From an uncultured bacterium (GTDB lineage: Bacteria; DUMJ01), in the NCBI GenBank assembly GCA_937958695.1, contig CALGNK010000024.1:1-32055 (forward strand): DNA of 32,055 bases, given 5' to 3'. The notes under the pieces are model-generated. The model was not told the DNA's origin. It did not search any database and saw only the letters and a program-made list of their open reading frames with translations. This document shows positions 6,611 through 31,548 of this stretch, piece by piece (positions within the stretch are counted from its first letter, which is position 1; each line of letters begins with the position of its first letter). Made by a program: the position numbers and the translations under genes.

Positions 6611-7620
6611 ATTTAGACTTGATAAAATTAGAAGCTTTAAAAGAGGTTTCTAGTGTAGAGAGTTTAGAGGAATTAAGAGAGATAGAAATTAAATATCTAG
6701 GGAGAAAGGGGCTGATAAACCAGCTTTTGAAGGAGCTGAAAGATATCCCTCCTGATAGAAGACCAGAGGTGGGTAGACTTATAAACCAGCTTAAGATTGA
6801 GATTTATAGCGAGATAGAATCTAAGAGGTCTCTTTTAGAAGAGAGGGAGAAGGCTAAGAGATTAGAGGAGGAGAGATTAGATGTTACCTTACCAGGAGTA
6901 AGGCTCTCCATAGGTAGATTGCATCCTCTTACCCTTATTATAGAAAGGGTGGAAGAGATTTTTAAAAGTCTCGGTTTTACTGTTGTAGAAGGATTCGAGA
7001 TAGAAAGTGACTATTACAACTTTGAGGCACTTAATATACCTTGGTATCATCCAGCAAGAGATTCACAAGACTCTTTTTATATAACTGACAAACTACTCCT
7101 TAGGACTCAAACTTCTCCTGTTCAGATAAGAGTTATGGAAAAAACTAAACCTCCATTTAAGATTATTGCTCCAGGAAGGGTCTATAGACGTGACCAACCT
7201 ACTGCAAGACATTCTCCTGTCTTTCATCAGATTGAAGGGATGGCCGTTGATAGAGATATAACATTTGCAGACCTAAAGGGCACTCTAGATACCTTTGCCC
7301 ATGCCCTTTTTGGAGAAGATGTTTCTACTAGATTTAGAGCTGATTATTTTCCATTCACAGAGCCAAGCGGAGAATTTGCGATAAGCTGTATATTCTGTAA
7401 AGGTAAAGGTTGCAATGTATGTTCCTATTCGGGATGGATTGAGATCCTAGGTTGTGGTATGGTGCATCCAAAGGTTTTAGAGATTGGTGGCATAGACCCT
7501 GAAGAGTATTCTGGTTTTGCCTTTGGTATGGGTTGGGATAGACTTGCAATGCTGACATATGGCGTAAATGATATAAGGTATTTCTTAGAGAATCATCCCG
7601 AGTTCTTAGCTCAGTTCTAA
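6592..7620 (+). CDS. pheS: Phenylalanyl-tRNA synthetase alpha subunit
   Basis: This is the catalytic subunit of the (alpha-beta)2 enzyme that charges tRNA-Phe, 342 residues. The N-terminal ~90 residues form the tRNA-binding coiled coil ([20 protein letters not shown]). The class II core follows: [14 protein letters not shown], then [42 protein letters not shown] and motif 3 [22 protein letters not shown] CxxC...CxxC insert ([12 protein letters not shown]) before the GWIEILG strand is a possible zinc site, as in many bacterial PheS. The start ATG 6592 lies inside dppF; AAGGAG ends at 6580, 11 bases upstream. A second in-frame ATG is at 6601. pheT follows 11 bases later. Confidence 0.96.
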
Positions 7621-7631
7621 GGAGGCAGACT

Positions 7632-9650: not shown

Positions 9651-10125
9651 CAAGATAAGTCTAGATATAGTAAGTGTAATCCTTATCCTTTTAGGCTTTT
9701 TTTGGGGATTAAGGAAAGGATTTGTACGTTCTCTTTTTTTCCTCTTAGGGATTGTAATTGCAATCTATCTAGGTAATTTGGCTACTAAGGTATTTGTTAA
9801 AGATCTTGTAGATAGATTTAATATGTCTAGAGATATAGCTGGATTTCTTATCTTTATAGTTATATTCTTCATATCTCTTGGCTTAATAAATGCTTTGGGT
9901 TTTCTAATAAAAAGACCTAAGAAGGGTTTAGGTAGGGTTTTAGATAAACTTGGGGGATGTGTCTTAGGGATAGTGTGGGGATTTGGTATATGTGGATTTC
10001 TAGGAATTATTCTCTCTAGGTTTGAATTTACAAAACCATGGCTGTCTAGTACTATAATACTTGGAATAGCTGAGTCTTGGATAAGAAAGATGGTAGAAAG
10101 GATTCTTTCCTATGGAACTAGGTGA
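9640..10125 (+). CDS. CvpA family membrane protein
   Basis: A 161-residue protein with four hydrophobic segments (about residues 9-24, 28-50, 62-88 and 105-127) and the CvpA pattern: LGFFWGLRKGFVRSLFFLLG at the first loop, then GRVLDKLGGCVLGIVWGF. CvpA (colicin V production) family proteins are inner-membrane and poorly understood. The gene follows pheT and precedes polX, the same order as yshB-polX after pheST in Bacillus subtilis. GTG 9640 lies inside the end of pheT (11-base overlap) behind AAGGGAAG (9628-9635). Confidence 0.85.
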   Translation: MNGSKISLDIVSVILILLGFFWGLRKGFVRSLFFLLGIVIAIYLGNLATKVFVKDLVDRFNMSRDIAGFLIFIVIFFISLGLINALGFLIKRPKKGLGRVLDKLGGCVLGIVWGFGICGFLGIILSRFEFTKPWLSSTIILGIAESWIRKMVERILSYGTR

Positions 10126-11731: not shown

Positions 11732-12558
11732 TGTGCGATTTGAAAAGATTAGCAGAAATTGCTAAGAGGGTAAGGTATAATACATTATATATGATAACTA
11801 AGGCAGGCTCAGGACATCCTGGCGGATCACTGAGTGCAGTTGATATTATGGTCACTCTGTATTTTAATGTTATGCGCTATAAGGTAGAAGATCCTTTCTG
11901 GGAAGATAGGGATAGATTTATCCTATCTAAAGGGCATGCCTGTCCAGCTCTGTATGCAATATTCTATGAGCTTGGGATAATCAAGAAAGAAGAGCTTGAT
12001 ACCCTTAGGAAGCCAGGTAGTAGACTTCAAGGGCATCCTGATATAAAGAAACTCCCCTGGGCAGAGTTTTCCTCTGGATCTTTGGGACAAGGACTCTCCT
12101 TTGCTGTTGGTGTAGCCCTTGCTGGTAAGATGGACAAGAAAGATTACTATACATTTGTCTTAATTGGAGATGGGGAAAGTCAAGAAGGACAGATATGGGA
12201 AGCAGCTATGTCAGCTAGAAAGTTTAAGCTTAACAATCTTATAGGGATTACTGATAGAAACGGATTACAGATAGATGGGGAGACAGAGAGCATTATGCCA
12301 ATTGACCCATTAGCCTATAAGTGGAGAGCCTTTGGTTGGAACGTATTAGAGATAGATGGCCATAACTTTTCTCAGATAATCTCTGCTATAGAAAAGGCGA
12401 AAGAGAATAAAGAGTCTCCCACTATGATAATAGCCCATACTATAAAGGGTAAAGGGGTATCATTTATGGAAAACGTTGTAGATTTTCATGGAAAAGCACC
12501 ATCTTCAAAGGAATGGGAGATAGCTAGTGTCGAGTTAGGGGGTGATTCTATTGAATAG
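11728..12558 (+). CDS. Transketolase, N-terminal (TPP-binding) subunit
   Basis: This is the half-size subunit of a split transketolase (non-oxidative pentose phosphate pathway), 276 residues. SGHPGGSLSAVDIMV and LSKGHACPALYA mark the start of the fold. The thiamine diphosphate motif runs from GDGESQEGQIWEAA to TDRNGLQIDG. AAGGAGG at 11716-11722 serves two adjacent ATGs, 11728 and 11731; spacing slightly favours the second (8 versus 5 bases), and either gives essentially the same protein. It overlaps polX and the C-terminal subunit gene. Confidence 0.94.
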   Translation: MMCDLKRLAEIAKRVRYNTLYMITKAGSGHPGGSLSAVDIMVTLYFNVMRYKVEDPFWEDRDRFILSKGHACPALYAIFYELGIIKKEELDTLRKPGSRLQGHPDIKKLPWAEFSSGSLGQGLSFAVGVALAGKMDKKDYYTFVLIGDGESQEGQIWEAAMSARKFKLNNLIGITDRNGLQIDGETESIMPIDPLAYKWRAFGWNVLEIDGHNFSQIISAIEKAKENKESPTMIIAHTIKGKGVSFMENVVDFHGKAPSSKEWEIASVELGGDSIE

Positions 12559-13489
12559 GCTTGCAATGAGAGATGTTTACGGAGAGACCCTCTTAGAGTT
12601 GGGGAAGATCTATCCAAATCTGATAGTATTAGATGCAGATGTATCGAAATCTACTAAGACTATTAGCTTTGCAAAGACTTTTCCGGATAGATTTTTTGAT
12701 GTTGGTATAGCTGAGGCAAATCTTATGGGTATCTCTGCCGGGATAGCTTCTACTGGCAAGATAGTCTTTGCTAGCACATTTTCGGTTTTTGCCTCAGGGA
12801 GAGCTTACGACCAGGTTAGACAATCTATAGCCTACCCTAATCGAAATGTAAAGATAGTAGCTACACATTGTGGAGTCTCTGCTGGAGAGGATGGAGCAAT
12901 GCACCAGGCTTTTGAAGATATAGCCCTTATGAGAAGTATATCCAATATGAGGGTAATAGCACCTTCTGATGGAGTAGAAACTAGAAAGGTGATTAAAAAG
13001 ATTGTAGAGATACCAGGTCCTTTTTATCTGAGGCTTGCTAGACCAGCTACGCCAGTTATTTTTGATGAGTCTTACGAATTTGAACTAGGTAAAGGGACTA
13101 TTCTTAGAGAAGGTAAGGATGGGGTAATCATAGCATGTGGAGTTATGACGTATATAGCTTTAGAGGCAACAGAGATTCTTTTAAAAGACGGTATAGATAT
13201 AGGTGTAGTAAATATGTCTAGTATAAAGCCTATAGATGCTGAATTAATATCTATTCTTTCTAAGAATTATAGATACATATTCTCCTGCGAAGACCATAAC
13301 ATTATTGGAGGTTTGGGTAGTGCTATAGCAGAGGTGTTACCCCCTACCGAGGCTAGACTGATAAGAATAGGGATCAATGATGAATTTGGTGATTCTGGTA
13401 AGTTTGAGGAACTACTAAAATTCTACAAACTAGACTCTTCTTCTATAGCGGAGAGAATAAAAGAAGTGATATTGAATGATAGAATTTAG
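12551..13489 (+). CDS. Transketolase, C-terminal subunit
   Basis: This is the second half of the split transketolase, 312 residues from TTG 12551. It has the pyrimidine-binding domain with DVGIAEANLMGISAGIA (the Glu that activates thiamine), THCGVSAGEDGAMHQAFED, FYLRLAR, and the C-terminal transketolase domain (from GVMTYIALEA). Start choice: a GTG at 12542 is in frame, but it lies inside AGGGGGTGAT (12537-12546), a near-perfect Shine-Dalgarno sequence. The TTG at 12551, which reads MNRLAMRDVYGE like relatives, is therefore preferred. It overlaps the N-terminal gene by 8 bases and ftsE by 14. Confidence 0.93.
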   Translation: MNRLAMRDVYGETLLELGKIYPNLIVLDADVSKSTKTISFAKTFPDRFFDVGIAEANLMGISAGIASTGKIVFASTFSVFASGRAYDQVRQSIAYPNRNVKIVATHCGVSAGEDGAMHQAFEDIALMRSISNMRVIAPSDGVETRKVIKKIVEIPGPFYLRLARPATPVIFDESYEFELGKGTILREGKDGVIIACGVMTYIALEATEILLKDGIDIGVVNMSSIKPIDAELISILSKNYRYIFSCEDHNIIGGLGSAIAEVLPPTEARLIRIGINDEFGDSGKFEELLKFYKLDSSSIAERIKEVILNDRI

Positions 13490-14153
13490 AAATGTAACAA
13501 AGTATTACGATAATGGAGTTCTAGCTCTTGATGATGTATCTTTTAAGATAGAAAAGGGAGAGTTTGTCTTTATAGTAGGAGCTACCGGGATGGGAAAGTC
13601 CACATTGCTAAAACTTATATATAGGGAAGAACTTCCTACAAAGGGTGAAGTTATAGTAGGGGGAGTTAATGTTGCAAGGTTAAAGCCACATCAGGTAGCT
13701 CTATTAAGGAGAAGGCTTGGAGTAGTTTTCCAGGACTTTAAACTTCTTCCTAATAAGACTGTCTATGAGAATGTTGCATTTGCTTTGGAAGTAATGGGAT
13801 ATTCAAATAGAGAAATAAGGACAAGGGTGGGTAGGGTTTTGGATATAGTAGGACTTTTACATAAGAGTAACTGTTATCCGAGCGAACTTTCTGGAGGAGA
13901 ACAACAGAGGACATCCATAGCCAGAGCATTAGTTAATAATCCAGCTATCCTTATTGCAGATGAGCCTACTGGGAATTTGGATATTACTACATCTTGGGAG
14001 ATTATGGATTACTTTAAACGTATAAATGCTAGAGGAACAACTATAGTTATGGCTACACATAACAAGGAGATAGTAGACACTATGAGACAGAGGGTTATAG
14101 GTCTTTACAAGGGAAGGATAGTAAAGGATGAGTATAAGGGGAGCTATGAATGA
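13476..14153 (+). CDS. ftsE: Cell division ATPase FtsE
   Basis: This is the cytoplasmic ATPase that with FtsX controls septal peptidoglycan hydrolases, 225 residues. It opens IEFRNVTKYYDNGVLALDDV, with Walker A GATGMGKSTL, Q-loop VFQDFKLLPNKTVYENVAF, signature LSGGEQQR, Walker B ILIADEPTGNLD and switch His MATHNKE, closely following FtsE. The ATG at 13476 lies inside the transketolase gene, with an AAGAAGTGAT ribosome site upstream. It overlaps ftsX as ATGA. Confidence 0.96.
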   Translation: MIEFRNVTKYYDNGVLALDDVSFKIEKGEFVFIVGATGMGKSTLLKLIYREELPTKGEVIVGGVNVARLKPHQVALLRRRLGVVFQDFKLLPNKTVYENVAFALEVMGYSNREIRTRVGRVLDIVGLLHKSNCYPSELSGGEQQRTSIARALVNNPAILIADEPTGNLDITTSWEIMDYFKRINARGTTIVMATHNKEIVDTMRQRVIGLYKGRIVKDEYKGSYE

Positions 14154-15031
14154 AAATATACTCTATAGCATTTATACTTAGAGAGGCATGGAAAGGATTA
14201 ACAAGGGCTAGAATATCTACCTTTGCAGCTATTGGGATCATTGCCTTCATGCTTGTACTATTAGGGACAGTATTCTATACTTTTAATGTTATTCAAAGCG
14301 TTTTTACAGGTATAGGGGAACAGTTGGAGATAGTCCTATATCTTAAGGATGGCTTAAAATCAGAAGATAGAGAGATCTTGAAAAACAAGATAAGCAGTAT
14401 GGAAGGTGTAAAGGAGGTTATCTATGTCTCTAAAGATGAAGCTTGGAAGAGATTTAAGGAGTCTTTCAAAGGTAACAAATTTGTTTTAGAAATAATGGGG
14501 AAAAATCCCCTGCCAGATTCTTTTGAAATTAAGGTTGAAAGACCAGAATATATAGAAATTTTGGCTAAAGAGATAACTGCATTACCAGGCATTAGAGATA
14601 TTGATATCCCTCTAGAAATTGCTAGAAGAGTAAATAGGCTTATTAGTTGGATAGAGTTCGGGGGGGTTATTATAGTGGGGGTTTTTGTAGTGGTGTCTCT
14701 ATTTGTTATATCAAATGTCATAAGGTTAAGTTTTGTCTCTAGGATTAAAGAGCTAGAGATTATGCAGTTAGTGGGAGCAACTAGCTTTTTTATAAAGGGA
14801 CCATTTATACTTGAAGGAGTATTATGTGGGTTTGGGGGAGGGATTTTGGGTGTAATTGTATTTAACGTACTAGTCTTTCTTTTTAATAAATATGTCCTAT
14901 CTAGTTTTCCTTTATTTTCAGGTTTTGTTCCATGTGATACCCTCAATTTGAGTCTTTCGCTTATATTATTTGGTATGATGGTGGGAGGGATAGGAAGTGT
15001 TATCTTTTTGGAAAGACATCTTAAAAGGTAA
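14150..15031 (+). CDS. ftsX: Cell division protein FtsX
   Basis: This is the membrane partner of FtsE, 293 residues. A short cytoplasmic N-terminus (FILREAWKGLTRARISTFAA) leads into TM1 (~22-45). An extracytoplasmic domain (~50-165) follows with EIVLYLKDGLKSED and VKEVIYVSKDEAW, the usual FtsX motifs. Three more membrane segments are at about 170-195, 215-245 and 262-288, with RIKELEIMQLVGAT between TM2 and TM3. The extracytoplasmic domain should bind the coiled coil of the next gene product. It overlaps that gene by 35 bases, an unusually long shared stretch. Confidence 0.95.
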   Translation: MKIYSIAFILREAWKGLTRARISTFAAIGIIAFMLVLLGTVFYTFNVIQSVFTGIGEQLEIVLYLKDGLKSEDREILKNKISSMEGVKEVIYVSKDEAWKRFKESFKGNKFVLEIMGKNPLPDSFEIKVERPEYIEILAKEITALPGIRDIDIPLEIARRVNRLISWIEFGGVIIVGVFVVVSLFVISNVIRLSFVSRIKELEIMQLVGATSFFIKGPFILEGVLCGFGGGILGVIVFNVLVFLFNKYVLSSFPLFSGFVPCDTLNLSLSLILFGMMVGGIGSVIFLERHLKR

Positions 15032-16148
15032 AATTAAATATCTTTTTATACTTTTGCTTATCCTTTCTGCTTTAGATGGTGCTTTTGGTAAAGATACTAT
15101 AACCCAGAAGCAAGAAGAGCTAAAAAATATAAAGAGACAATTGGAAGTTCAAAAGACACTTATAGAAAAGACTAAAAGTAAAGAACGAAATCTTGTTAGA
15201 GAAATAAATACGATAGACCAAGAGATAGAAATAACATCTAACAGGATAGAGGAACTAGAGAGACATCTAAATAAGATCCTTGTGCTTAAGAAGGAGGCAG
15301 AGAGAAGGTTAAATATAGCAGAGAAGAATTTAAAAGCTTCTAGGAATAGGTTAGGGGAAAAGTTATTTTTGATATACAGATATGGTAATGCGGAATATTT
15401 GGAATTACTTCTAGGTGCCAGTGACCCTTACGACTTTTTGACACGATATAGATTTCTATCACAGCTAGCTAAAGAAGATGCCTTACTTATAAAGTCTATT
15501 CAGGATGAAATGGCAAATGTGAATAGATGGAGAGAAGAATTAAATGAGAAGGAAAGAGATGTTAAAGCTACTAGAGAGGAGCTATTTTCTAAACAGAAGT
15601 TCTTAGCAGATAAGAAGGAGGAGAGGAATAGGCTTTTAGCTCAGACTATAAGTGAAAGAACTGCTTATGAGAGGGCACTAAAAGAACTTGAGGAAAGTTC
15701 TAAGGCTTTAGAAGCCTTAATTAGAAGACTACAGCAGACTACTCAGGGTCCTGGACTTTCTGGTAATCTCTATTGGCCAACCACTAATAGATTGATAACC
15801 TCTACGTTTGGGTATCGTAGACATCCCATATGGGGGATAAGGATGTTTCACTCAGGAATAGATATCTCAGGAAGTTATGGAGACCCTATCTATGCTGTAA
15901 ATGAGGGTAGAGTGATATATTCAGGTTGGCAGAGCGGTTATGGTAAGGTAATTATTATTGATCATGGTAATGGTATGTCAACTTTATATGCACACTGTTC
16001 TGTATTACTAGCAGGAGAAGGTGAGCAGGTAAAAAAAGGCCAGTTAATAGGTAAAGTTGGTTCTACAGGTTGGTCTACCGGGCCTCATTTACATTTTGAA
16101 GTAAGAAAAGATGGGACTCCTGTAAATCCTCTATCTATGGTAAAATAG
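14997..16148 (+). CDS. EnvC-like coiled-coil protein with LytM (M23) peptidase domain
   Basis: This is a periplasmic hydrolase or hydrolase activator, likely the FtsEX client, 383 residues. A signal/anchor segment covers residues ~13-31, and long coiled coils ~35-120 and ~160-250 flank a segment (EKLFLIYRYGNAEYLELLLG) typical of EnvC/PcsB-like proteins. The LytM domain covers ~265-380. Zinc ligands H285 and D289 (FHSGID) and H366, with H333 (LYAH) and H364 (HLHFE), are all present, so unlike the degenerate LytM of E. coli EnvC it could be a working endopeptidase. Start choice: GTG 14997 with GGGAGGGA ending seven bases upstream, inside ftsX. A 33-base gap precedes ctp. Confidence 0.92.
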   Translation: MLSFWKDILKGKIKYLFILLLILSALDGAFGKDTITQKQEELKNIKRQLEVQKTLIEKTKSKERNLVREINTIDQEIEITSNRIEELERHLNKILVLKKEAERRLNIAEKNLKASRNRLGEKLFLIYRYGNAEYLELLLGASDPYDFLTRYRFLSQLAKEDALLIKSIQDEMANVNRWREELNEKERDVKATREELFSKQKFLADKKEERNRLLAQTISERTAYERALKELEESSKALEALIRRLQQTTQGPGLSGNLYWPTTNRLITSTFGYRRHPIWGIRMFHSGIDISGSYGDPIYAVNEGRVIYSGWQSGYGKVIIIDHGNGMSTLYAHCSVLLAGEGEQVKKGQLIGKVGSTGWSTGPHLHFEVRKDGTPVNPLSMVK

Positions 16149-16181
16149 AAATAGAAGATAAACTGATTGGAGGGTTAATTT

Positions 16182-17333
16182 ATGAGACGTAATGTTGTAG
16201 TTTATAGTTTAGTAACGTTAGTTATAATAAGTATATCATTTTTAGCAGGGATGAATTATGGGGGATATCTTTCTGCCCAAAACAGTATAGATAGAAATCT
16301 GCAGATTCTACTTCAGGCTTACAACATTATTACGAATAACTATGTAGAAAAGATTGATGGAAGAAACCTTTCTTATAAAGGGATAGAAGGGATGTTATCT
16401 AGTCTAAATGATCCGTACTCATATTTTATGAAGCCTGAAGACTATAAGGCTATGGGAGAGGAATTTCAGGGTAGTTTTGAGGGCATTGGTATAGAGATTG
16501 GTATGAACGATAAGAAGCAGATAGTGGTCATCTCTCCTATAGATGATACACCTGCTCAAAAGGCAGGTTTGAAAACTGGTGATATAATACTTAAGGTTGA
16601 TGATAAGTCTACAGAGGGGATGAATCTAGATCAGGTAAGTAGACTCATAAGAGGTCCTGCTGGAACTAAAGTTAGACTTACGATACAGCGAGAAGGGGAG
16701 TCTAAACCTTTAGAGTTTACTATTGTTAGAGCGGTTATAAGATTATACACAGTTTCTAGCAAGATGTTAGATGATAATATTGGCTATATAAAGTTAAAGG
16801 CTTTTAGAGAGCCAACAAGTGAAGAGCTTAATAATGCATTAGATCAATTATTGCCAAAAGCTAGAAGAGGAATTATCCTTGACTTACGAAATAATCCTGG
16901 CGGATTACTCAGCTCAGCTATACAGGTAGCTAGCTATTTTGTCCCGAAGGGACCCGTTTTATATGCTGAGGATAGAAATGGAAATAGAGATCAGTTTGAT
17001 GCTATCTCAAGCCTTTATAAGGTAAGAGTTCCTGTAGTTGTTCTAGTAAACGAGGGAAGTGCAAGTGCTTCTGAGATAGTGGCTGGTGCTTTACAGGATT
17101 ATAAAAGGGCAACATTGGTTGGAACTAAGACCTTTGGTAAGGGTCTTGTCCAGAGTGTAATTTCATTAGCTGATGGTTCTGCTATGAGTCTTACAGTTCA
17201 AAAGTGGCTTACCCCAAAACTGCGTTATATACACAAAGAAGGTATAAAGCCTGATATCCAGATTGAATGGGACCAGAAGGGAACAGATATACAGTTAGAG
17301 AGGGCAAAAGAAGTCTTACTTGGGAAGAAGTAA
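16182..17333 (+). CDS. Carboxy-terminal processing protease (S41 family)
   Basis: This is an exported serine protease, 383 residues, that trims C-termini of envelope proteins; in several bacteria Ctp degrades or controls murein endopeptidases. A signal anchor is at residues ~8-30. The PDZ domain is at ~95-180 (FEGIGIEIG ... AGLKTGDIILKVDD). The S41 core contains YIKLKAF, LDLRNNPGG, NEGSASASEIVAGAL with probable catalytic S295, and FGKGLVQ with K320, exactly 25 residues later as in the Ser-Lys dyad of CtpA. The start is ATG 16182 behind GGAGGG (16169-16174). Its place after a LytM gene suggests, by inference, that it regulates that hydrolase. Confidence 0.95.
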   Translation: MRRNVVVYSLVTLVIISISFLAGMNYGGYLSAQNSIDRNLQILLQAYNIITNNYVEKIDGRNLSYKGIEGMLSSLNDPYSYFMKPEDYKAMGEEFQGSFEGIGIEIGMNDKKQIVVISPIDDTPAQKAGLKTGDIILKVDDKSTEGMNLDQVSRLIRGPAGTKVRLTIQREGESKPLEFTIVRAVIRLYTVSSKMLDDNIGYIKLKAFREPTSEELNNALDQLLPKARRGIILDLRNNPGGLLSSAIQVASYFVPKGPVLYAEDRNGNRDQFDAISSLYKVRVPVVVLVNEGSASASEIVAGALQDYKRATLVGTKTFGKGLVQSVISLADGSAMSLTVQKWLTPKLRYIHKEGIKPDIQIEWDQKGTDIQLERAKEVLLGKK

Positions 17334-18513
17334 GAAGAGAAAGATACGTTTTGATATAACACTGGCTTTTTCTATTATATTTATTCTTATTTGTCTCTTT
17401 GCAGTATGGAGTCTAAAAGAGGTTGGGAAGGATAAAGGTCCTTCTCAACCTCAAATTATACTTGATAAAACTAATTCTACCCCAATATATGAGTTATTAA
17501 AGCCATTGTCTAAGGAAGAAGTTCCTATCCCTAAAGAGCCTATGGAAGAGGGAGATACTACTAAAAAAGAAACTAACTATAAAAACGAAGTCTCTACTGA
17601 AAGTCCTGAGACAAAAACAGATTTTATAACAGGTGATAGGGTAGATGCAAAATTGGAAGAGGCTATTAAGTCTTTCTTTTTGGATCTAGGATGTAAGGTT
17701 GAGAATGGTTGGGTTATAGATCTTCCAACCTTTTACTCAGTTGAGTGGCTGAAACGCAAGTTAAATATGAAGATATCTGAGCTTGGTTATAATTTAAAAG
17801 ATAATACCATCTATAAAAATGATAGAGAGATAATTAGGCTTAGATTTGAAAAGATTAAGCCAAAGGGGAAAATAAGTATCATTATAGATGATGTGGGTAG
17901 GTCAACTAGACTAAACGGAATTTTAGATAGTATTGATTTGCCGCTTAATATCTCGATCCTTCCAAGCCAGAATAAATCTAGATATATGAGCCTTATTGGT
18001 ATGCGAAAATGCTGGGATGTTCTTTTGCATCTTCCTATGGAACCAAAAGAGAAGAGTTGGATAGATACTATCTTTATAAAGGTTACAATGGATGATAGAG
18101 ATATAGAGAAAATGGTAGATAGTTATCTCCAAGAGCTCTCTTTTGTTAATGGTGTCAATAATCATATGGGTTCTTTGGCTACTACAGATGAGAGAGTGAT
18201 GAGGATAGTTCTTAGCATAATTAAGGATAGAGGCCTATATTTTATAGACAGTCTTACCACATCAGATTCTGTTGGGGAAAAGATCTCTAGAGAAATAGGA
18301 CTGGAAAGATTTGCCAAGAGAGATATATTTTTAGATAATATAGATGATAGAAATTACATAGAGTCTCAGATAGATAAACTTATCGAGGTTAGTATAAGGA
18401 AAGGCTTTGCTATAGGGATAGGGCATCTAAGAGAAAATACACTTTTGACTATAAAAGAATATAACTGGAAGGATAAAGACATCGAATTGGTATTACTAAG
18501 TGAGGTCCTATAA
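17320..18513 (+). CDS. Divergent polysaccharide deacetylase family protein (YibQ-like)
   Basis: A 397-residue protein with one N-terminal membrane segment (~13-30), a Pro/Lys/Glu-rich linker (~35-100), a small alpha-beta region (~105-175), and a divergent polysaccharide deacetylase domain from about 185. Landmarks are IIIDDVGRS, LPLNISILPS, LLHLPMEP, VNNHMGSLATTD, YFIDSLTTSDSV, and FAIGIGHLREN. These match YibQ, whose gene also follows envC in E. coli, where the enzymatic role is not settled. The start is TTG 17320, since no ATG occurs in frame before the membrane segment. It overlaps ctp by 14 bases and shares one base (TAATG) with lptB. Confidence 0.88.
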   Translation: MGRSKKRKIRFDITLAFSIIFILICLFAVWSLKEVGKDKGPSQPQIILDKTNSTPIYELLKPLSKEEVPIPKEPMEEGDTTKKETNYKNEVSTESPETKTDFITGDRVDAKLEEAIKSFFLDLGCKVENGWVIDLPTFYSVEWLKRKLNMKISELGYNLKDNTIYKNDREIIRLRFEKIKPKGKISIIIDDVGRSTRLNGILDSIDLPLNISILPSQNKSRYMSLIGMRKCWDVLLHLPMEPKEKSWIDTIFIKVTMDDRDIEKMVDSYLQELSFVNGVNNHMGSLATTDERVMRIVLSIIKDRGLYFIDSLTTSDSVGEKISREIGLERFAKRDIFLDNIDDRNYIESQIDKLIEVSIRKGFAIGIGHLRENTLLTIKEYNWKDKDIELVLLSEVL

Positions 18514-19232
18514 TGATACTTAAGACTGTAAATTTAGTAAAGAGATTTGGCCAGAGAACTGTTGTAAAAAATGTGTCGATAGAGATAAGTACGGGTGAAA
18601 TAGTAGGACTCTTAGGCCCAAATGGGGCAGGAAAGACAACAACCTTTTATATGATAACTGGGTTTTTGAGACCAAATGGGGGGAAGATATATCTGAATGA
18701 AATAGATATCACCAATATGCCTATTCATAAAAGAGCTAGACTTGGTATAGGATATCTGCCTCAGGAACCTTCCATATTCAGGAAACTTACAGTAGAAGAA
18801 AATCTATTGGCTGTATTACAATTTCTTCCTATGTCCAATAAAGAGAGAGAAACAATGGTAGATGAACTCTTAGAAGAATTTGGGATAGCACATTTAAGAA
18901 AATCTTTAGCTTCTTCTCTTTCTGGCGGAGAAGCAAGAAGGCTTGAAGTTGCAAGGTCTCTCTTAACATCTCCTAAAATTATCCTTTTGGATGAGCCATT
19001 TTTAGGTATAGACCCTATAACTGTAGCAGATATACAGGTAATAATAAATCAGCTAAGAGAAAAAGGTTTGGGTATTTTGATAACAGACCATAACGTTAGG
19101 GAGACTTTATCTATAGTTGATAGGGCATATATAATAAATGAAGGAGAAGTAATAGCTAGTGGTGATCCGAGTGATATTGCTAATAATACTAGGGTAAAAC
19201 AGATATACCTTGGGGAGAAGTTTGTCTTATGA
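18513..19232 (+). CDS. lptB: Lipopolysaccharide export ATPase LptB
   Basis: This is an ABC ATPase of the Lpt machine, 239 residues. Walker A is GPNGAGKTTTFYMITGF, followed by GIGYLPQEPSIFRKLTVEEN, signature LSGGEARRLEVARSL, Walker B IILLDEPFLGIDPITVADIQ and ITDHNVRETLSIVDRAYI, ending YLGEKF. The DPIxVxDIQ and DHNVRETL stretches are diagnostic of LptB rather than LivF-type ATPases. Its presence supports an outer membrane with exported lipopolysaccharide or a related glycolipid. The partner genes lptF/G/A/C are not in the window. It overlaps proB as ATGA. Confidence 0.94.
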   Translation: MILKTVNLVKRFGQRTVVKNVSIEISTGEIVGLLGPNGAGKTTTFYMITGFLRPNGGKIYLNEIDITNMPIHKRARLGIGYLPQEPSIFRKLTVEENLLAVLQFLPMSNKERETMVDELLEEFGIAHLRKSLASSLSGGEARRLEVARSLLTSPKIILLDEPFLGIDPITVADIQVIINQLREKGLGILITDHNVRETLSIVDRAYIINEGEVIASGDPSDIANNTRVKQIYLGEKFVL

Positions 19233-20290
19233 AGAGATTAGTGGTAAAGATAGGGACAGCTACATTATGTCCTAGTGATGGATTAGATGTTAATTTTTTG
19301 GATAGTATAGCTAAGCAGGTTAAGAATCTACAAGAACGTGGAATATCAACTACTATTGTTACTTCAGGGGCTATTGGCCTTGGTAGGTCGATAGTAAAAA
19401 ACATTAACAAAAACCTAAATATTGTCCAAAAACAGGCATTAGCTGCTGTAGGACAAGGAAGACTTATAAATTATTATAGCTCTATATTTGAGAAATATGG
19501 GCTTATAGTTGCTCAGATTCTATTAACTAGGGAAGATCTTGCTAATAGGAAGAGATTCCTCAATGCGAGAAATACTTTAGAAGAGCTTATAAATTTAGGA
19601 ATAGTTCCGGTAATAAATGAGAATGATACTGTAGCTACAGAAGAAATCAAACTGGGAGATAATGATCAATTGTCTGCTTTGGTTTCTACTTTAATAGATA
19701 GCGACTTACTCATTATTCTATCTAATGTCAAAGGACTTTATGATAAAGATCCACACCTTTATCCGGATGCCAAATTAATAGGAGAGATACATAACTTTGA
19801 TGAGATACCCAAAGATTTAGGTGGTCCATCAGAGAAAGGTTCTGGAGGTATGATCACTAAGATACTCGCGGTTGAAATAGCAGCAAGAAGGAACATCCCT
19901 ACTGTAATAACCTCTGGCAGAGAGGATAGAGTTATAGAAAGGATTGTTGATGGAGAGCCTATCGGAACTCTATTCCACATAGAAAGTGATAAGTTATCGA
20001 AACGCAAGATATGGATAGGCTATGGGTTAACTACAAAGGGGAAATTATATGTAGATCAAGGTGCTTATGAAGCATTAATGTTTAAGAATAAGAGTCTTCT
20101 CTCTCAGGGTATTAAGAGTATAGAAGGAGAATTTTCTTCTGGGGATGCTGTTTCGGTTATATCCCCTACTGGGGAAGAGTTCGCTAGAGGACTTGTTTAT
20201 TATTCTAGCACTGAGTTAGACCAATTGAAAGGGAAAAAGGGTTATCACGAGGTAATTCACAGAGATAATCTAGTTATACTTCATCAATAA
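19229..20290 (+). CDS. proB: Glutamate 5-kinase with PUA domain
   Basis: This enzyme phosphorylates glutamate in the first step of proline synthesis, 353 residues. The amino-acid kinase fold includes [60 protein letters not shown]-like [12 protein letters not shown], and GSGGMITK. The C-terminal PUA domain starts near KRKIWIGYG and includes [18 protein letters not shown]. proA is not beside it. It is the last gene of the long co-directional block and starts in an ATGA overlap with lptB. Confidence 0.95.
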
Positions 20291-23880: not shown

Positions 23881-23908
23881 TTGACTTGTATGTTTTTTGT
23901 GTTAAAAT
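23881..23908 (+). promoter_or_regulatory. Promoter of the sulfatase/glycosidase operon
   Basis: TTGACT (23881-23886, five of six) and TAAAAT (23903-23908, five of six) are 16 bases apart. A palindromic AT-rich block lies immediately downstream, between the -10 and the ribosome site, where a repressor would block transcription. Confidence 0.65.
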
Positions 23909-23909
23909 A

Positions 23910-23931
23910 ATTAATACAATTAATTAATTAA
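23910..23931. promoter_or_regulatory. Candidate operator for the ROK regulator
   Basis: ATTAAT-ACA-ATTAAT (23910-23924) overlaps the perfect 12-base palindrome TTAATTAATTAA (23920-23931). Operators of ROK repressors (XylR/NagC type) are AT-rich palindromes near the promoter, and a ROK gene is second in this operon. The link is inference. In DNA this AT-rich, a chance palindrome is possible. Confidence 0.45.
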
Positions 23932-23943: not shown

Positions 23944-24942
23944 ATGGACTTAATAAATTTGAAAAGTTATAGAACTTTAAAACTATTTGAACCAGAGAAA
24001 GGAACTGTTGTAGCTACTCCTCCTGGTAGAGGTCCAGGCTATTGGGCTGGTGCAAGTGGTGTATTATACGATGAAGATGATGGGAAGTTTTACCTTTACT
24101 ACAGATTGAGAAGACCCAGATTTATAGAAAATGGAAAAGAGATTGGTAGGGGTTACGAATGTGTAATCTTGGAAAGTAAAGATGGAATTAATTTTAAGAC
24201 TATTTGGAGGGCTGATAAATCATATTTTGGTGGGATCTCATTAGAAAAAGCCTCATTGATTAAAACTTTAGATGGAAGATATAGGCTCTATATAAGCTAT
24301 GTAGACCCTGAAGATAATAGATGGAGAATAGATATGATAGAGGCGGATAGGATAGAAAATCTAGATCCAGCAAAAAAGACTAAAATCTTTACTTCTTCTG
24401 ACCTTGGAGTAGAAGGTGTAAAAGATCCTGAAGTTATTATTTTGGGTGGACTTTACTATATGATTGTAAGTTATGCTCCATCTCCAGTAGACTTGAATCC
24501 AGTTCTAAAGTCGAAAATGCATGAAACTGCAGATGTCTATAATACTGGTATTACCAAGTCCTGTACTGGCTTAGCGGTAAGTAGAGACGGGGTTAATTTC
24601 AAATGGCTAGGTGATATCTTATCCCCAAGAGAAGACAGCTGGGATGCCTATGCAACTAGGATTACTAGCATCCTTTATTCTCCTCCAGTCTTTTACGCCT
24701 TTTACGATGGAAGTAGAGATGTGTCAGAGAACTATGAGGAAAAATTGGGATTAGCAATTAGCCTAAATCTTAGGGACTTTGAGATAGTAAGTATGGATAA
24801 GCCTATCTTACTTTCTCCTTACTCATCTAGGAGTTTGCGATATGTAGGTGTAATTCCAGTTTTTGGCAGACTTTATTACTATTATGAAATGGCAGTTGCT
24901 GATGGATCCCACGAGTTAAGGGTGAGTGTAGTTGAACCTTAG
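23944..24942 (+). CDS. Beta-propeller glycoside hydrolase-like protein (GH43/GH32/GH130-type fold)
   Basis: 332 residues, no signal peptide, so cytoplasmic. Repeated blade motifs are visible: WAGASGVLYDEDDGKFYLYYR (~34-54), ESKDGINFKTIW (~77-88), KDPEVIILGGLYYMIVSYAP (~160-179), AVSRDGVNFKWLG (~208-220) and LGLAISLNLRDFEIV near the end. The S-x-DG-x-F/W turns and the DPE motif are typical of five-bladed propeller glycosidases or phosphorylases. The exact family and the catalytic acids cannot be fixed by eye. It is first in an operon with a regulator, dehydrogenase, sulfatase and isomerase, so it probably cleaves an oligosaccharide. The start ATG 23944 follows AAGGAGG (23930-23936); the ATG at 23939 is out of frame. 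Confidence 0.72.
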   Translation: MDLINLKSYRTLKLFEPEKGTVVATPPGRGPGYWAGASGVLYDEDDGKFYLYYRLRRPRFIENGKEIGRGYECVILESKDGINFKTIWRADKSYFGGISLEKASLIKTLDGRYRLYISYVDPEDNRWRIDMIEADRIENLDPAKKTKIFTSSDLGVEGVKDPEVIILGGLYYMIVSYAPSPVDLNPVLKSKMHETADVYNTGITKSCTGLAVSRDGVNFKWLGDILSPREDSWDAYATRITSILYSPPVFYAFYDGSRDVSENYEEKLGLAISLNLRDFEIVSMDKPILLSPYSSRSLRYVGVIPVFGRLYYYYEMAVADGSHELRVSVVEP

Positions 24943-26089
24943 AGGAGTAAATCACCAGCTAGTTAAGATACAGAATAGAAATCTAATTCTTAAACTTATA
25001 TATGAGAGAGGCTCTATAAGTAGACAGGAAATTTCAAGGATAATTGGATTAACCCCTGCTACAGTAACAAATATAACTGGAGAATTGCTAGATGAAGGTT
25101 TCGTTATAGAACTTCCAAGTTTCGAAGAGAAGTCTGGTTCTGGTAGAAAGGCTATACCTCTAGCTATAAATCCATCTTCTGGATATGTGATAGGGGTAGA
25201 TATAGGGCCAAGGGTAATAAGAATAGCTACAAGCGATCTATTGGGGCATCTTTCAAATATAGAGACCTTTCAATACGATAGTCAATTAGGAGAAGATCTT
25301 GTAGAGATTCTTATAGAGAAATTGAGATTTTTAAAAGAAGACCACAATATCCTAGGTATAGGGATAGGAATCCCTGGTCTTGTAGATTCTATCTCTGGAG
25401 AGTTGAAGTTTTCTCCTAATTTAGGCTGGAAGAATCTAAAGATAGCTGAGCCCATCAAGGATAAACTTAGTCTACCAGTGATAGTAGAGAATAATGTCAA
25501 AGCTATGGCTCTCGGAGAGAAGTGGTTTGGTAGAGGTAAAAAGTCGAATAATTTTGTTCTTGTCTACGTTAGTTTAGGCATAGGTGCTGGGATAATCATA
25601 GATGGAAGGATATACAAAGGGTCTAACAATGGTGCAGGAGAAATAGGCCATACAGTTGTTTCTGAGGAGGGTGAGATTTGTAATTGTGGGAAGAGAGGAT
25701 GTCTAGAGACATTTGCCTCAGCCAGAGCAATTGTAAGAGACTTTAAGGGGATATCAGGTGACGAAGATTCGGATATAAATGAGATAAAGGTGGCTTTAGA
25801 AAAGGGAGATACCAAGGCATTAGAGATAGTGAAAAAGGCTGGACATTATCTAGGAGTTGGTATCTCTAACCTTGTAAATATGTTTGATCCAGAGATGATA
25901 ATCCTCTCTGGAAGGGTAATCAGATTAGGAAAGGCTCTCTTAGAACCTATGAGAAAGGCTTTGGAGAGTAGACTCTTTTCTACTGACAGTGTAAGGATAG
26001 AGATTTCGGAATTAGGTAAGGAGATTGGTCTATATGGCGCTAGTGCTTTGGCTCTCCAAAAATTTTTCTATGAAAAGGAGGAATTATGA
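24932..26089 (+). CDS. ROK family transcriptional regulator
   Basis: 385 residues. A winged helix-turn-helix at ~15-62 (NRNLILKLIYERGSISRQE, LTPATVTNITGELLDEGF) is followed by a ROK sugar-binding domain from ~84 (VIGVDIGPRVIRIATSD; GIGIGIPGLVD). The zinc site is complete (H240, C250, C252, C257 in CNCGKRGCLE). Where ROK kinases have the catalytic Asp of the END motif this protein has ENNVKA (N188), so it is probably a regulator without kinase activity. It likely represses this operon and is released by a sugar intermediate. The start is TTG 24932 inside the preceding gene, with AAGGGTGA (24918-24925) upstream. Confidence 0.88.
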   Translation: MNLRGVNHQLVKIQNRNLILKLIYERGSISRQEISRIIGLTPATVTNITGELLDEGFVIELPSFEEKSGSGRKAIPLAINPSSGYVIGVDIGPRVIRIATSDLLGHLSNIETFQYDSQLGEDLVEILIEKLRFLKEDHNILGIGIGIPGLVDSISGELKFSPNLGWKNLKIAEPIKDKLSLPVIVENNVKAMALGEKWFGRGKKSNNFVLVYVSLGIGAGIIIDGRIYKGSNNGAGEIGHTVVSEEGEICNCGKRGCLETFASARAIVRDFKGISGDEDSDINEIKVALEKGDTKALEIVKKAGHYLGVGISNLVNMFDPEMIILSGRVIRLGKALLEPMRKALESRLFSTDSVRIEISELGKEIGLYGASALALQKFFYEKEEL

Positions 26090-27054
26090 ATATAGGCATA
26101 ATAGGAGCCGGGAGAATAGCTAAAGCTCATTTTGAAAGACTTATTAAAAGGGATGATATTAGAATTAGGGGGATAGCGGATATCATATTTTCTAGGGCTA
26201 AAGAGATGTCAGATAAGTGTGGTGCGAATGCATATTCAAGTTTTGAAGAGCTTTTAGACAATGAAAAGGATTTAGACGCCTTATTTATCTGTACACCTCC
26301 TTATAATAGAGAACCTGAAAACCTTATACGATCTGCTCAGAAAGGTATTCATCTCTTTATTGAAAAACCACCAGCAAGAAGTCTAATGGTAGGGGAAAGA
26401 TTATTAGAAATCTTTGATAAAACAGGTATTGTTGTTAGTGTAGGTTTTTTATGGAGATACTCTGAGCTTGCAGTAAAAATAAAAGAATTCCTAAAGGATA
26501 AACGGTGCGCAGTGATCGTTTCTAGATGGTATCATACTATTCCACCTATAGCCTGGGTTCGTGACAAAGAGAGGGCTGGTGGACAAGTTGTAGACCAGTC
26601 AATACATCTTGTAGACCTGATGAGATATGTAGTTGGAGAAGCAAAGACTGTATATTCTCAGAGCTCTCAAGGTCTATTCCCAGAGATAGAAGACTTCATC
26701 AATGATGATGCCAGTGTAACCGTTATAACATTTCAAAATGGCACCATAGCAATGCTAGCCTCTACCTATTCTCTCTTCTTAAATCCTGAGCATGGTCCTA
26801 AGATAGAATTTATAGCCAAGAGGTTGAGATTAGAGGGAAGTCTTAATTATCTAAAGGTGTTTACCCCTGAGAATATAGAAAGCTTTGATTTTGCTGATGA
26901 TCCTATGGAAAAGGAACAGTTAGCCTTCTTTAACGCTATAGAGAATGGTGATAAGAGTAGAATATTATCCTCGTATGAAGATTCTTTAAGAACATTAAGG
27001 GTAGTTTTATCCGCAAACATCTCTATGGATACCGGGGAGGTAATAACGCTATGA
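26086..27054 (+). CDS. Gfo/Idh/MocA family NAD(P)-dependent oxidoreductase
   Basis: 322 residues, cytoplasmic. The N-terminal Rossmann motif is IGIIGAGRIAKAHFERL (~3-19), ALFICTPP follows the nucleotide-binding strand, and FIEKPPARS (~95-103) carries the conserved EKP lysine. The C-terminal domain has GGQVVDQSIHLVDLMRYVVG with the D...H motif used as catalytic residues in the family. It probably oxidises or epimerises a sugar or sugar acid released by the neighbours; the substrate is not predictable. ATG 26086 overlaps the ROK stop (ATGA) behind AAAAGGAGG. Confidence 0.88.
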   Translation: MNIGIIGAGRIAKAHFERLIKRDDIRIRGIADIIFSRAKEMSDKCGANAYSSFEELLDNEKDLDALFICTPPYNREPENLIRSAQKGIHLFIEKPPARSLMVGERLLEIFDKTGIVVSVGFLWRYSELAVKIKEFLKDKRCAVIVSRWYHTIPPIAWVRDKERAGGQVVDQSIHLVDLMRYVVGEAKTVYSQSSQGLFPEIEDFINDDASVTVITFQNGTIAMLASTYSLFLNPEHGPKIEFIAKRLRLEGSLNYLKVFTPENIESFDFADDPMEKEQLAFFNAIENGDKSRILSSYEDSLRTLRVVLSANISMDTGEVITL

Positions 27055-28601
27055 GAATATTATATTTGGATATAGACACATTAAGACCTGATCATCTATC
27101 CTGTTACGGGTATCATAGGGAGACTTCTCCTAATATAGATTTAGTAGCTAGAGAAGGGATAAGGTTTGATAGATTCTATGCATCAGATACCCCCTGCATG
27201 CCTTCTAGGGCTGCTCTTTTTACTGGAAGATTTGGGATACATAACGGTATTGTAAATCATGGATTTACCGCTAGTGATTTGAAATCCTTTGAACCATTAA
27301 GATTTTTTAACAATAGACAAAGCCCCTTGACCCAGCTAGTTACTCTACTTAGACGCCTTGGTTACTACACAGTAAGTGTAAGTCCCTTTGGGGAGAGACA
27401 TTCTGCCTGGTGGTATTATGATGGATTTAGAGAAATATATAATACTGGCAAGGGAGGTATGGAAAGGGCAGATGAGGTAGTCCCTCTAGCGCTAAAATGG
27501 CTAGAAGAGAATGGAAAGAGTGATAGCTGGTTTTTACATATAAATCTCTGGGATCCACATACCCCTTATCGGACTCCTATAGAATACGGAAATCCCTTTG
27601 AGGATTCTCCTCCACCATCATGGATAACTGAAGAGATTATAGCCGAGCATAGGAAATTATATGGTCCGCACTCTGCTAGAACTACTCATGATCTAAGAGA
27701 TATGCCTGAAGATTTTTTTGAGAAATATCCTAGATTACCTAGAAGTATAGAAAAATTGGAAGAATATAAGAAATGGATCGACGGATATGATACGGGGATA
27801 CATTATGCAGACTATTGGTCCGGTAAAATCTTTGATTTACTTAAAAAGTTAGGAGTATGGGAAGATACATTGGTTATTATTAGCTCCGACCATGGAGAGA
27901 ATCAAGGAGAGTTAAATGTTTATGGGGACCATCAGTTGGCTGATGAGATAACTCATAGGATTCCACTTATAATAAAAGGACCCGGAGTAAAGGAAGGTAT
28001 AGTGGATAAAGATTTTCACTACAATATAGACCTATCTGCAACCTTAATAGATTTCTTAGGGGGAGCTGAACTAATCCCTCAGATGTGGGACGCCAAGTCA
28101 TTTGCCGAGACACTTAAAACTGGGATGCCAAGTGGTAGGCCCTATCTTGTCCTTTCTCACTGTGTTTGGAGTATCCAGAGGTCTGTCCGTTTTGGGAAAT
28201 GGTTATTGCTTGAGACTTACGACGATGGTTGTAAGGAGATATTAAAACCAATTATGCTATTCGATATAGACTCTGACCCTCACGAGTTGATAGACCTATC
28301 TGAAAATCATCCTGAAATTGTAAAAGAAGGTAAGGCTCTACTTGAAAATTGGCTTAGGGAAAATATGAAAGGTTCCTTTTTTGACGAAGACCCTCTCATA
28401 TCTACACTCCATAATAGTGGTCCTTATCACATACCTACCTATCAACTTATGGACTATGCAGATATAGTAAGGAAGATATGGGGAGAAGAAAAGGCTGAAA
28501 AACTTATTGGAAGACACAAAGAACAATACTATTATTATCTCTTGAAAGGCTATCGTTTCTTAGAGGCGATGGAATTTTCTAAAAGGTACGGATTGAGGTG
28601 A
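27051..28601 (+). CDS. Cytoplasmic type I sulfatase (formylglycine-dependent)
   Basis: A 516-residue enzyme that hydrolyses sulfate esters. The N-terminal metal motif is DIDTLRPDHLSCYGY (D9, D14), and C49-M-P-S-R53 followed by AALFTGR is the CxPSR signature whose Cys becomes formylglycine. H163 and the WDPH motif (167-170) and SDHGENQGEL (D280, H281) complete the site. No signal peptide is present, unlike many polysaccharide sulfatases, so it should act on imported sulfated oligosaccharides. Alkaline-phosphatase superfamily relatives lacking the Cys would not be sulfatases; here the Cys is present. The maturation enzyme (anSME or FGE) is not in the window. It overlaps the oxidoreductase as ATGA. 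Confidence 0.9.
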   Translation: MRILYLDIDTLRPDHLSCYGYHRETSPNIDLVAREGIRFDRFYASDTPCMPSRAALFTGRFGIHNGIVNHGFTASDLKSFEPLRFFNNRQSPLTQLVTLLRRLGYYTVSVSPFGERHSAWWYYDGFREIYNTGKGGMERADEVVPLALKWLEENGKSDSWFLHINLWDPHTPYRTPIEYGNPFEDSPPPSWITEEIIAEHRKLYGPHSARTTHDLRDMPEDFFEKYPRLPRSIEKLEEYKKWIDGYDTGIHYADYWSGKIFDLLKKLGVWEDTLVIISSDHGENQGELNVYGDHQLADEITHRIPLIIKGPGVKEGIVDKDFHYNIDLSATLIDFLGGAELIPQMWDAKSFAETLKTGMPSGRPYLVLSHCVWSIQRSVRFGKWLLLETYDDGCKEILKPIMLFDIDSDPHELIDLSENHPEIVKEGKALLENWLRENMKGSFFDEDPLISTLHNSGPYHIPTYQLMDYADIVRKIWGEEKAEKLIGRHKEQYYYYLLKGYRFLEAMEFSKRYGLR

Positions 28602-28605
28602 ACCT

Positions 28606-29388
28606 ATGAAGATTGCATGTGGTGAGACGATTATTCCTGGAAATACGTTTAGAGAAAAGGTAGAGTTTCTTGAGTCAGCTGGATACGAGGGGATAGACCT
28701 TGTAGGTGCAGGGCTTAGAGAAAGAATAGAGGAAGTAAAAGATACCTTATCTAAAAGTAGTATTAGTGTAGCAGCCATATATAGTAGACTACAGTATTCT
28801 CTACTATCTAATGAACCTGAAGAAAGAAAGATCGCTATAGAGCAGTTGAAAGACAGACTTTTAATTGCTTCTGAATTAAAAGCTTTGGGAGTTATATTTG
28901 TTCCAATATTTGGTCTTCCTAAAATTCCAGATCTTAGCCCATTTATGAGCACTATAGAGTTAGAAAAGGCTTTACTTATCTCTATACTTAAAGAGATAGT
29001 TCCAGTAGCCAATAGTCTTGGTGTGAGTCTTTTTCTAGAACCTATTAATAAAAAGGAGACACATTTTATAAATAATCTTACCCAAGGGTTTGAGATCGCA
29101 AGAGAAACTGGTGTTTATCTTTTAGCAGACATATATCATCTAATATTAGAAGAGCAGTCTCCAGATACTTTGGCTAAATATAGAGACTACATTGGATATG
29201 TTCATATAGCTAATAAATCAAGAGAAGTTCCAAGAGAAGAAGATTTTATCTATCTAAAATCTTGGTTAGATATACTTAAACAGATCGACTATAACGGATA
29301 TATCTCTTTAGAGTGCTCTCCACCAAAAGAACCAGAAGAACTAAGGCTTTTTCCAGAGATCTTTAAGAAGCTAACCTTTTCCCAATAG
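28606..29388 (+). CDS. Sugar phosphate isomerase/epimerase-like TIM barrel (AP endonuclease 2 family)
   Basis: 260 residues, cytoplasmic. Features of the xylose-isomerase-like barrel are visible: KVEFLESAGYEGIDLVG, FLEPINKKETHFINN (metal-binding Glu), LLADIYHLILEE (D...H pair), IGYVHIANKSR and GYISLECSPP (second Glu). It may interconvert a ketose or sugar acid from the sulfatase/glycosidase steps. The start ATG 28606 follows GAGGTGA (28594-28600), four bases after the sulfatase stop. The gene ends at 29388, where a remnant of another gene begins without a gap. Confidence 0.86.
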   Translation: MKIACGETIIPGNTFREKVEFLESAGYEGIDLVGAGLRERIEEVKDTLSKSSISVAAIYSRLQYSLLSNEPEERKIAIEQLKDRLLIASELKALGVIFVPIFGLPKIPDLSPFMSTIELEKALLISILKEIVPVANSLGVSLFLEPINKKETHFINNLTQGFEIARETGVYLLADIYHLILEEQSPDTLAKYRDYIGYVHIANKSREVPREEDFIYLKSWLDILKQIDYNGYISLECSPPKEPEELRLFPEIFKKLTFSQ

Positions 29389-29750
29389 CTCCACAGTGGT
29401 TTGTTCCCTATAATACTAGTTGGGAAAATAGTTGGTGTCCTCTTTGGGCACGATGGTATGCATCTAAAGGAAGATCAGGAGAAGAACCTCCCAAAGAGGC
29501 AAAGAGACTATTAGACCTTTGGGAGAAAATGTTAAGTACTACTATAGAGTCACAGAGGATTAAACTAGGACAGGAAATACTGAAATCCCATGCGGAAAAT
29601 CTCTGGACGATAGGTACTGTGGGTTTGGCTCCTGTCCCAATTATAGCAAGAAATACCCTAAGAAATATACCAGAGAAAGGGATCTGGGGTTGGGATTATT
29701 TCTGGGCTATGCTCTACAACCCGGAACAGTTCTTCTTTAAGCAGAAGTAA
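29388..29750 (+). pseudogene. C-terminal remnant of an ABC solute-binding protein (family 5, sugar/peptide type)
   Basis: An open frame of 120 codons with no start near its beginning reads APQWFVPYNTSWENSW, then GEEPPKEAKRLLDLWEKM, HAENLWTIGTVG, PVPIIARNTLRNIPEKG, and NPEQFFFKQK before TAA (29748-29750). This is the order of motifs at the end of family 5 binding proteins: G-EPP-EA-RL, AENLW-IG-VG, RN-LRN-PE, NP-QFF. The first ~450 or more residues are missing, so a deletion appears to have joined the isomerase gene to the tail of a transporter gene. An internal ATG at 29529 gives a 73-residue frame but is just a residue inside the remnant. It differs in subfamily from the receptor at 1238-2785. 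Confidence 0.75.
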
Positions 29751-29757
29751 AATTCTT

Positions 29758-30756: not shown

Positions 30757-31548
30757 ATGGGATATAGTTACCATAATGCTCCTAAAGAAATAAAAGCATT
30801 ACTGAATAAGATAGTCAGTTCTTACTGTGATATTCTAGGAGATAACTTAGTAGGGATATATTTACATGGTTCTCTTGCTTTAGGTTGTTTCAATCCTTAT
30901 AAGAGTGATATAGATTTTCTTATAGTAGTTCAAGATAAATTATCTATAATAACTAAGAGAGAGTTTGTAGCTACTACCCTTAAACTTGCTGAATTGGAAG
31001 AGGTCCCTCCTAAGGGTTTAGAGTTTAGTGTAGTATTGGAGAAAGACCTGAAGAATTTTAATCATCCTATGCCTTTTGAGTTTCACTATTCTAAAGATTG
31101 GCATAATGCTTACAAAGAAAATAAGATAGACCTTACAAGCAATAATAAAGACCGTGATTTGGCAGCACATATTACTGTAATATTTAATAGAGGTATCTGT
31201 CTTTATGGAAAGCCTATAAAGGATGTATTTCTGCCAATACCTAAAGAGTATTATATAGATGCCCTTATATATGATTTAGAAGGGATCACCAAAGATATCT
31301 ATAAAGATCCTGTTTATGGAATTTTGAATCTTTGTAGGATTCTATACTTTTTAGAAGAGGAAAAGATTGCATCAAAAGAAGAGGGAGGTCTCTGGGGGAT
31401 AGATAATTTACCTACAAAATATAGACACCTGCCTTGGAAAGCCTTGAAGGAGTACGGAGAAAAGAGTAGTGGTGATTATATTTTAGAAGATCTGTCAAGT
31501 TTTGTAGACTACATGATTTCTAGGATTAATAGCATTGTAAAGACTTAA
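30757..31548 (+). CDS. ANT/AadA-like aminoglycoside nucleotidyltransferase family protein
   Basis: 263 residues. The nucleotidyltransferase core is GIYLHGSLALGCFNP (G38, S39), then KSDIDFLIVV with the metal-binding D51 and D53. A C-terminal DUF4111-type helical domain follows (DLEGITKDIYKDPVYGILNLCRILYFLEE; GGLWGIDNLPTKYRHL). The N-terminus MGYSYHNAPKEIKALLNK aligns with streptomycin/spectinomycin adenylyltransferases (AadA/ANT(9)), supporting ATG 30757 although no ribosome site precedes it. Chromosomal relatives often have unknown substrates, so resistance should not be assumed. It is convergent with the minus-strand gene after it. Confidence 0.82.
   Translation: MGYSYHNAPKEIKALLNKIVSSYCDILGDNLVGIYLHGSLALGCFNPYKSDIDFLIVVQDKLSIITKREFVATTLKLAELEEVPPKGLEFSVVLEKDLKNFNHPMPFEFHYSKDWHNAYKENKIDLTSNNKDRDLAAHITVIFNRGICLYGKPIKDVFLPIPKEYYIDALIYDLEGITKDIYKDPVYGILNLCRILYFLEEEKIASKEEGGLWGIDNLPTKYRHLPWKALKEYGEKSSGDYILEDLSSFVDYMISRINSIVKT

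Follow-up and report, generated by a model that had tools for sequence, protein, structure and literature searches.

Organization of the operon and its control region

The window analyzed here, the whole 32,055-nucleotide stretch from an uncultured bacterium, carries five open reading frames at positions 23944 to 29388 that are all intact and co-directional. They encode a propeller protein, a ROK-family protein, a Gfo/Idh/MocA dehydrogenase, a sulfatase and a TIM barrel protein, and are bounded by a probable promoter and the remnant of a binding-protein gene:

23885..23912, + strand: probable sigma-70-type promoter (TTGACT, about 16 bp, TAAAAT), read by eye
23909..23925, no strand assigned: candidate ROK operator, palindrome AATTAAT-ACA-ATTAATT, a perfect inverted repeat between the -10 element and the ribosome-binding site
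23944..24942, + strand: propeller glycosidase-like protein, five-bladed, 332 aa, no Pfam family
24932..26089, + strand: ROK-family repressor (Pfam ROK and HTH_24)
26086..27054, + strand: Gfo/Idh/MocA dehydrogenase (Pfam GFO_IDH_MocA; EKP and GGxVVDQSIHLVD motifs)
27051..28601, + strand: cytoplasmic FGly-type sulfatase (C49-M-P-S-R53; SDHG at 279-282), member of a single clade of 22 orthologs
28606..29388, + strand: AP_endonuc_2 TIM barrel of epimerase/isomerase type (putative metal ligands E145, D175, H200 and E236)
about 29358..29751, + strand: SBP_bac_5 gene remnant, last ~130 codons, 89% identical to residues 532-661 of the protein of the sister species

A preliminary description of this DNA had proposed a tight cluster of five genes lacking signal peptides, and both points hold. 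The reading frames lie where it had placed them, with junctions of -11, -4, -4 and +4 bp in order, such that neighboring genes overlap by 4-11 bp or stand 4 bp apart. No N-terminal hydrophobic segment is present in any of the five proteins; their best 13-residue Kyte-Doolittle means within the first 45 residues are 0.2-0.85, versus 2.9-3.2 by the same measure for secreted controls from the same window. When each gene is compared with its counterpart in the sister species (locus L002), dN/dS is 0.05-0.13, indicating that all five are real genes under purifying selection. The operon has no adjoining permease or ATPase genes. Elsewhere on the same contig, window positions 1238-6610 encode an Opp/Dpp-type ABC transporter with all its parts (two permeases, two ATPases and a binding protein) that could serve orphan binding proteins, and positions 30757-31548 encode an AadA/ANT(9)-like nucleotidyltransferase that scores far under the NCBIfam resistance cut-offs.

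The product of the second gene has the architecture of a ROK repressor, with an N-terminal winged helix-turn-helix (HTH_24, 1e-7) joined to a ROK domain (4e-66) that contains the zinc motif CxCGxxGC; it also matches the NagC model at 2.4e-67, under the cut-off of that model. The sister species has exactly the promoter-region stretch GTTTTTTGTGTTAAAAT... but other DNA upstream of it, and the palindrome at 23909-23925 falls inside this identical stretch of ~50 bp. Six palindromes of the same geometry occur in the AT-rich window and such repeats are thus not rare in it, so the case for an operator is the conservation in the sister species, which makes this palindrome a plausible candidate for the ROK binding site.

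The sulfatase and its maturation

The fourth gene product belongs to the Pfam Sulfatase family (PF00884, 2.6e-41) and carries the canonical nucleophile motif C49-M-P-S-R53, confirming the formylglycine (FGly)-type site previously noted in it. The C-x-P-S-R motif is invariant in 21 orthologs, and the aligned members share the N-terminus MRxLxxDxDTLRPDH at or near Met1, a few start sites having been placed upstream by the mechanical ORF finder. The preliminary description had made its reading depend on a formylglycine-generating enzyme in the genome. A search for FGE (PF03781) found none in this genome and was positive in four control genomes; a full-length anSME is encoded in single copy at C1:16497-17558 (424 bits, cut-off 349), as is one full-length copy in each of the three genomes of the genus. 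The earlier reading is thus not refuted on this point. The fold, the C/S-x-P-S/A-R motif and the presence of a maturation enzyme together suggest that the protein is an FGly-dependent type I sulfatase (SulfAtlas S1).

At E < 1e-90, orthologs were found in 17 of 391 Clostridia and in 4 of the 68 genomes from the phylum Hydrogenedentota. In a tree of 22 orthologs these signal-less proteins from Clostridia and Hydrogenedentota form one clade with full support. Genomes that bear an ortholog nearly always encode anSME (20/21), versus 3/20 Clostridia that lack an ortholog, a control set unmatched for phylogeny or for possession of any sulfatase (Fisher p 1.2e-7), and this association fits a real FGly enzyme. 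Two further pieces of a Cys-type sulfatase, N- and C-terminal, lie at two contig ends of this genome (G000:C1:1-567 and C19:207-986) and probably represent a single gene that the assembly broke in two.

The enzyme class to which the sulfatase belongs also includes phosphonate and phosphodiester hydrolases, and the protein may instead be a phosphonate monoester/phosphodiester hydrolase (PMH/PehA-like) in an operon that salvages a phosphorylated glycoside or polyol. Its best PDB matches include the multifunctional PMH-type enzymes 4upi, 4upl and 4upk, its best NCBIfam model is PehA, and the neighboring Gfo/Idh and TIM barrel proteins resemble the inositol enzymes IolG and IolO, in each case under the model cut-offs. 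However, the PehA score is 117 bits against a cut-off of 900, placing the protein outside that family as modeled; the match is in any case not discriminating, since PehA-type enzymes and sulfatases share motifs. Neither does anSME separate the two readings, because PMHs also need FGly. An AlphaFold model of the protein reached a pLDDT of 57, too low for fold searches.

In related loci, the same genome encodes six sulfatase-fold proteins without a signal peptide in which Thr replaces the residue that becomes formylglycine; they often adjoin SBP_bac_5 genes:

L021 (G000:C46), 3288-4685, 14225-15622, 17842-19272 and 19399-: Thr-type sulfatase-fold proteins
L023 (G000:C17), 8952-10301 and 11340-12746: Thr-type sulfatase-fold proteins

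The C17 locus (7024-16562) has gene classes like those of the window operon (binding protein, sulfatase-fold protein, Gfo/Idh dehydrogenase and TIM barrel), and its Thr-type enzymes branch as sister to the window sulfatase clade, on long branches. As formylglycine cannot be formed from this Thr, these proteins are less likely to be sulfatases than phosphatases or phosphodiesterases, and such relatives count in favor of the PMH assignment for the window enzyme. Overall, we consider that assignment unlikely, and we infer that sulfate, rather than another ester, is the group removed.

The propeller, dehydrogenase and TIM barrel proteins

No Pfam family matches the propeller protein. Its profile aligns weakly with structures of GH32, GH43 and GH117 (best E 0.0026, GH32), with the conserved K160-D161-P162 falling on the GH32 RDP motif, and the invariant acids are E72, E101, D161, E315 and E324. 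An AlphaFold model built with two sequences gave a pLDDT of 42, too low to interpret. Judged from these alignments, the protein is predicted to be a divergent GH32/43-like protein. Homologs with 25-30% identity occur in 42 of the 68 genomes from the phylum Hydrogenedentota, where no linkage to sulfatases was found, and none was detected in the 391 Clostridia, a search that had no positive control there.

The third gene product (GFO_IDH_MocA, 2.5e-22) is closest among known structures to a dehydrogenase and to inositol-dehydrogenase-like structures. The fifth (AP_endonuc_2, 7e-26) has the fold and the E/D/H/E ligand set of xylose-isomerase-like epimerases, and its closest structures are the putative sugar isomerase 3kws and a chain named 3-keto-D-glucoside 4-epimerase (9e-17). 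This pairing suggests keto-sugar remodeling.

A non-hydrolytic route could use the same enzymes, the Gfo/Idh dehydrogenase producing a 3-keto-glycoside that the TIM barrel cleaves by beta-elimination, in the manner of an O- or C-glycoside eliminase, while the sulfatase trims the substrate. Pairs of Gfo and TIM barrel proteins are the usual partners of such chemistry (PMC10628242), the dehydrogenase weakly matches the disaccharide 3-dehydrogenase BT_2159 and DgpA, and the 3-keto-D-glucoside 4-epimerase match of the TIM barrel also points this way. However, the dehydrogenase scores 42 bits with the BT_2159 model, whose cut-off is 650, and the eliminase signature is missing. AtOGE has a His132/His134 pair in which the catalytic His134 lies two residues past the first metal ligand (PMC10628242). 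In pairwise alignments the window protein reads E145-P-I-N at this site, as in the aligned epimerases, with no His two residues after the first ligand. The absence of this residue makes the TIM barrel more likely an epimerase or isomerase than a lyase and lowers the elimination route to one that we consider improbable.

A deleted binding-protein gene and variation within the genus

In the sister species the operon continues into a sixth gene, beyond the view of the preliminary description, encoding a 661-aa SBP_bac_5 solute-binding protein with a signal peptide. The nearest PDB entry to this protein is 5ipw (1.9e-125), a Thermotoga protein named only as oligopeptide-binding, followed by SPH1118 (~1e-98), which has been shown to bind pectin (PMC7055323), and then by an alpha-galactoside-binding protein. 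In the window only a remnant of the gene is left, fused directly behind the TIM barrel gene by a deletion in the sequence as assembled, which may reflect misassembly. A search of the assembly found no close copy elsewhere, the best full-length paralog being 60% identical. The substrate uptake previously proposed is thus backed by a dedicated binding-protein gene that ends the operon in the sister species, but that same gene survives here only in part. The SBP_bac_5 family of large binding proteins is unusually expanded in the three genomes of the genus, with 38 matches in this genome and 42 and 34 in the other two, per 2.1-2.4 Mb genome and including some fragments.

The third species (locus L001) keeps only the sulfatase, located directly after an SLH gene; the propeller, ROK, Gfo/Idh and TIM barrel genes are absent. 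With six genes in the sister species, five in the window and one in the third species, the cluster is variable within the genus. The full five-gene set was found in two of the three genomes of the genus and nowhere else among about 930 genomes sampled, in which the phylum of this organism is represented by these three genomes, all of one genus. Looking for the same set elsewhere, as had been suggested, thus recovered it in the sister species but not around 20 other sulfatase orthologs, those of Clostridia standing without partners. The role of the sulfatase therefore appears separable, and the idea that the five genes serve one pathway, favored by the tight operon and by purifying selection, is weakened by the lone sulfatase of the third species and the partnerless orthologs.

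These observations also touch on whether the operon is decaying and no longer feeds the cell, with the sulfatase alone keeping a housekeeping role such as the cytoplasmic desulfation of scavenged small esters. The deleted binding-protein gene, the retention of the sulfatase only in the third species and the free-standing clostridial orthologs agree with such decay; however, all five genes are open and have evolved under purifying selection since the two species diverged, although most of that divergence predates the deletion. On this evidence we regard decay as improbable.

Proposed pathway and relation to known systems

We narrowly favor the interpretation that these genes form a catabolic operon under ROK repression, whose substrate would be an oligosaccharide or glycoside that bears sulfate, is imported, and is then desulfated and remodeled in the cytoplasm. 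The conserved candidate operator and the similar make-up of the C17 locus count in its favor, and the lack of permease and ATPase genes beside the operon counts against it. In the ancestral form, as seen in the sister species, the large Opp/Dpp-type binding protein would deliver the substrate to an ABC importer. The single anSME of the genome would convert the sulfatase to its formylglycine form, allowing sulfate to be removed in the cytoplasm, and the propeller protein would act on the glycosidic bond. Together, the metal-dependent TIM barrel and the NAD(P)-dependent Gfo/Idh dehydrogenase would oxidize and epimerize or isomerize the unusual sugar on its way to central metabolism. Given the deletion in this genome, the operon would either rely on a related binding protein, of which the genome has 38, or be decaying. 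In this scheme we infer from gene content that an oligosaccharide is taken up, in what order the steps run, what the propeller, TIM barrel and dehydrogenase do, and that the ROK protein regulates the operon.

The preliminary description regarded the cluster as an undescribed catabolic system, a view that is not borne out, as the principle is known from Streptobacillus, pneumococcus and Bifidobacterium breve. In the glycosaminoglycan (GAG) cluster of Streptobacillus moniliformis (Smon0120-0127), sulfated disaccharides have been proposed to enter through an ABC importer and to lose their sulfate in the cytoplasm (PMC5430744). As proposed here for the ancestral operon, import there depends on a binding protein, and the sulfatase (Smon0126) and glycosidase are predicted to be cytoplasmic. 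Of the importer that is encoded with a signal-less sulfatase in the Streptobacillus arrangement, the sister species has the binding protein only and the window its remnant. The Streptobacillus cluster differs in its GH88 enzyme acting on unsaturated uronides, its GAG lyases and its different binding-protein family, and the available text of that paper reports no set of propeller, ROK, Gfo/Idh and AP_endonuc_2 proteins.

A pneumococcal island likewise combines a ROK protein and a sulfatase in one locus with its sugar importer, a cellobiose-type PTS, and a sulfatase-modifying factor (PMC3283741). Deletion of the ROK gene raises transcription of the sulfatase and PTS genes, and activity of the sulfatase was not detected with 4-methylumbelliferyl sulfate (PMC3283741). 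In contrast to the genes described here, that island uses a PTS rather than an ABC transporter and is without propeller, Gfo/Idh or TIM barrel genes (PMC3283741). The ats2 cluster of B. breve (Egan et al. 2016), as described in PMC9239261, which cites that study, serves the use of a sulfated sugar from the host and encodes a glycosulfatase, an anSME, a transporter and a transcriptional regulator; its substrate is GlcNAc-6-sulfate and its anSME lies inside the cluster, whereas that of this genome lies elsewhere. The AtOGE operon and the CGE/Dgp 3-keto-glycoside systems resemble the window in having an NAD(P)/Gfo dehydrogenase adjoining an AP_endonuc_2-like TIM barrel, but in the available text of PMC10628242 they are without a sulfatase, and they possess the eliminase His missing here.

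Based on gene content, the operon is probably a variant of the known import-then-desulfate principle in a gene combination not known elsewhere. The set of propeller, Gfo/Idh and TIM barrel with a sulfatase was not found in the literature searched or in the other genomes of the sample of about 930, which is no proof of novelty. It is doubtful that the operon represents a new pathway, in which an esterified or sulfated oligosaccharide taken up by an Opp-type binder would be desulfated and then opened by a new propeller glycosidase family and keto-sugar chemistry, with the C17 locus assembled from the same modules to handle phosphate esters. The sulfatases without signal peptides recognized here make up a widespread clade whose distribution follows that of anSME, and one of them sits in a compact operon together with an uncharacterized propeller family and keto-sugar enzymes. 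Should the predicted activity be correct, cytoplasmic desulfation would be known from thermophilic or environmental bacteria as well, and a propeller family common in Hydrogenedentota would gain its first function.
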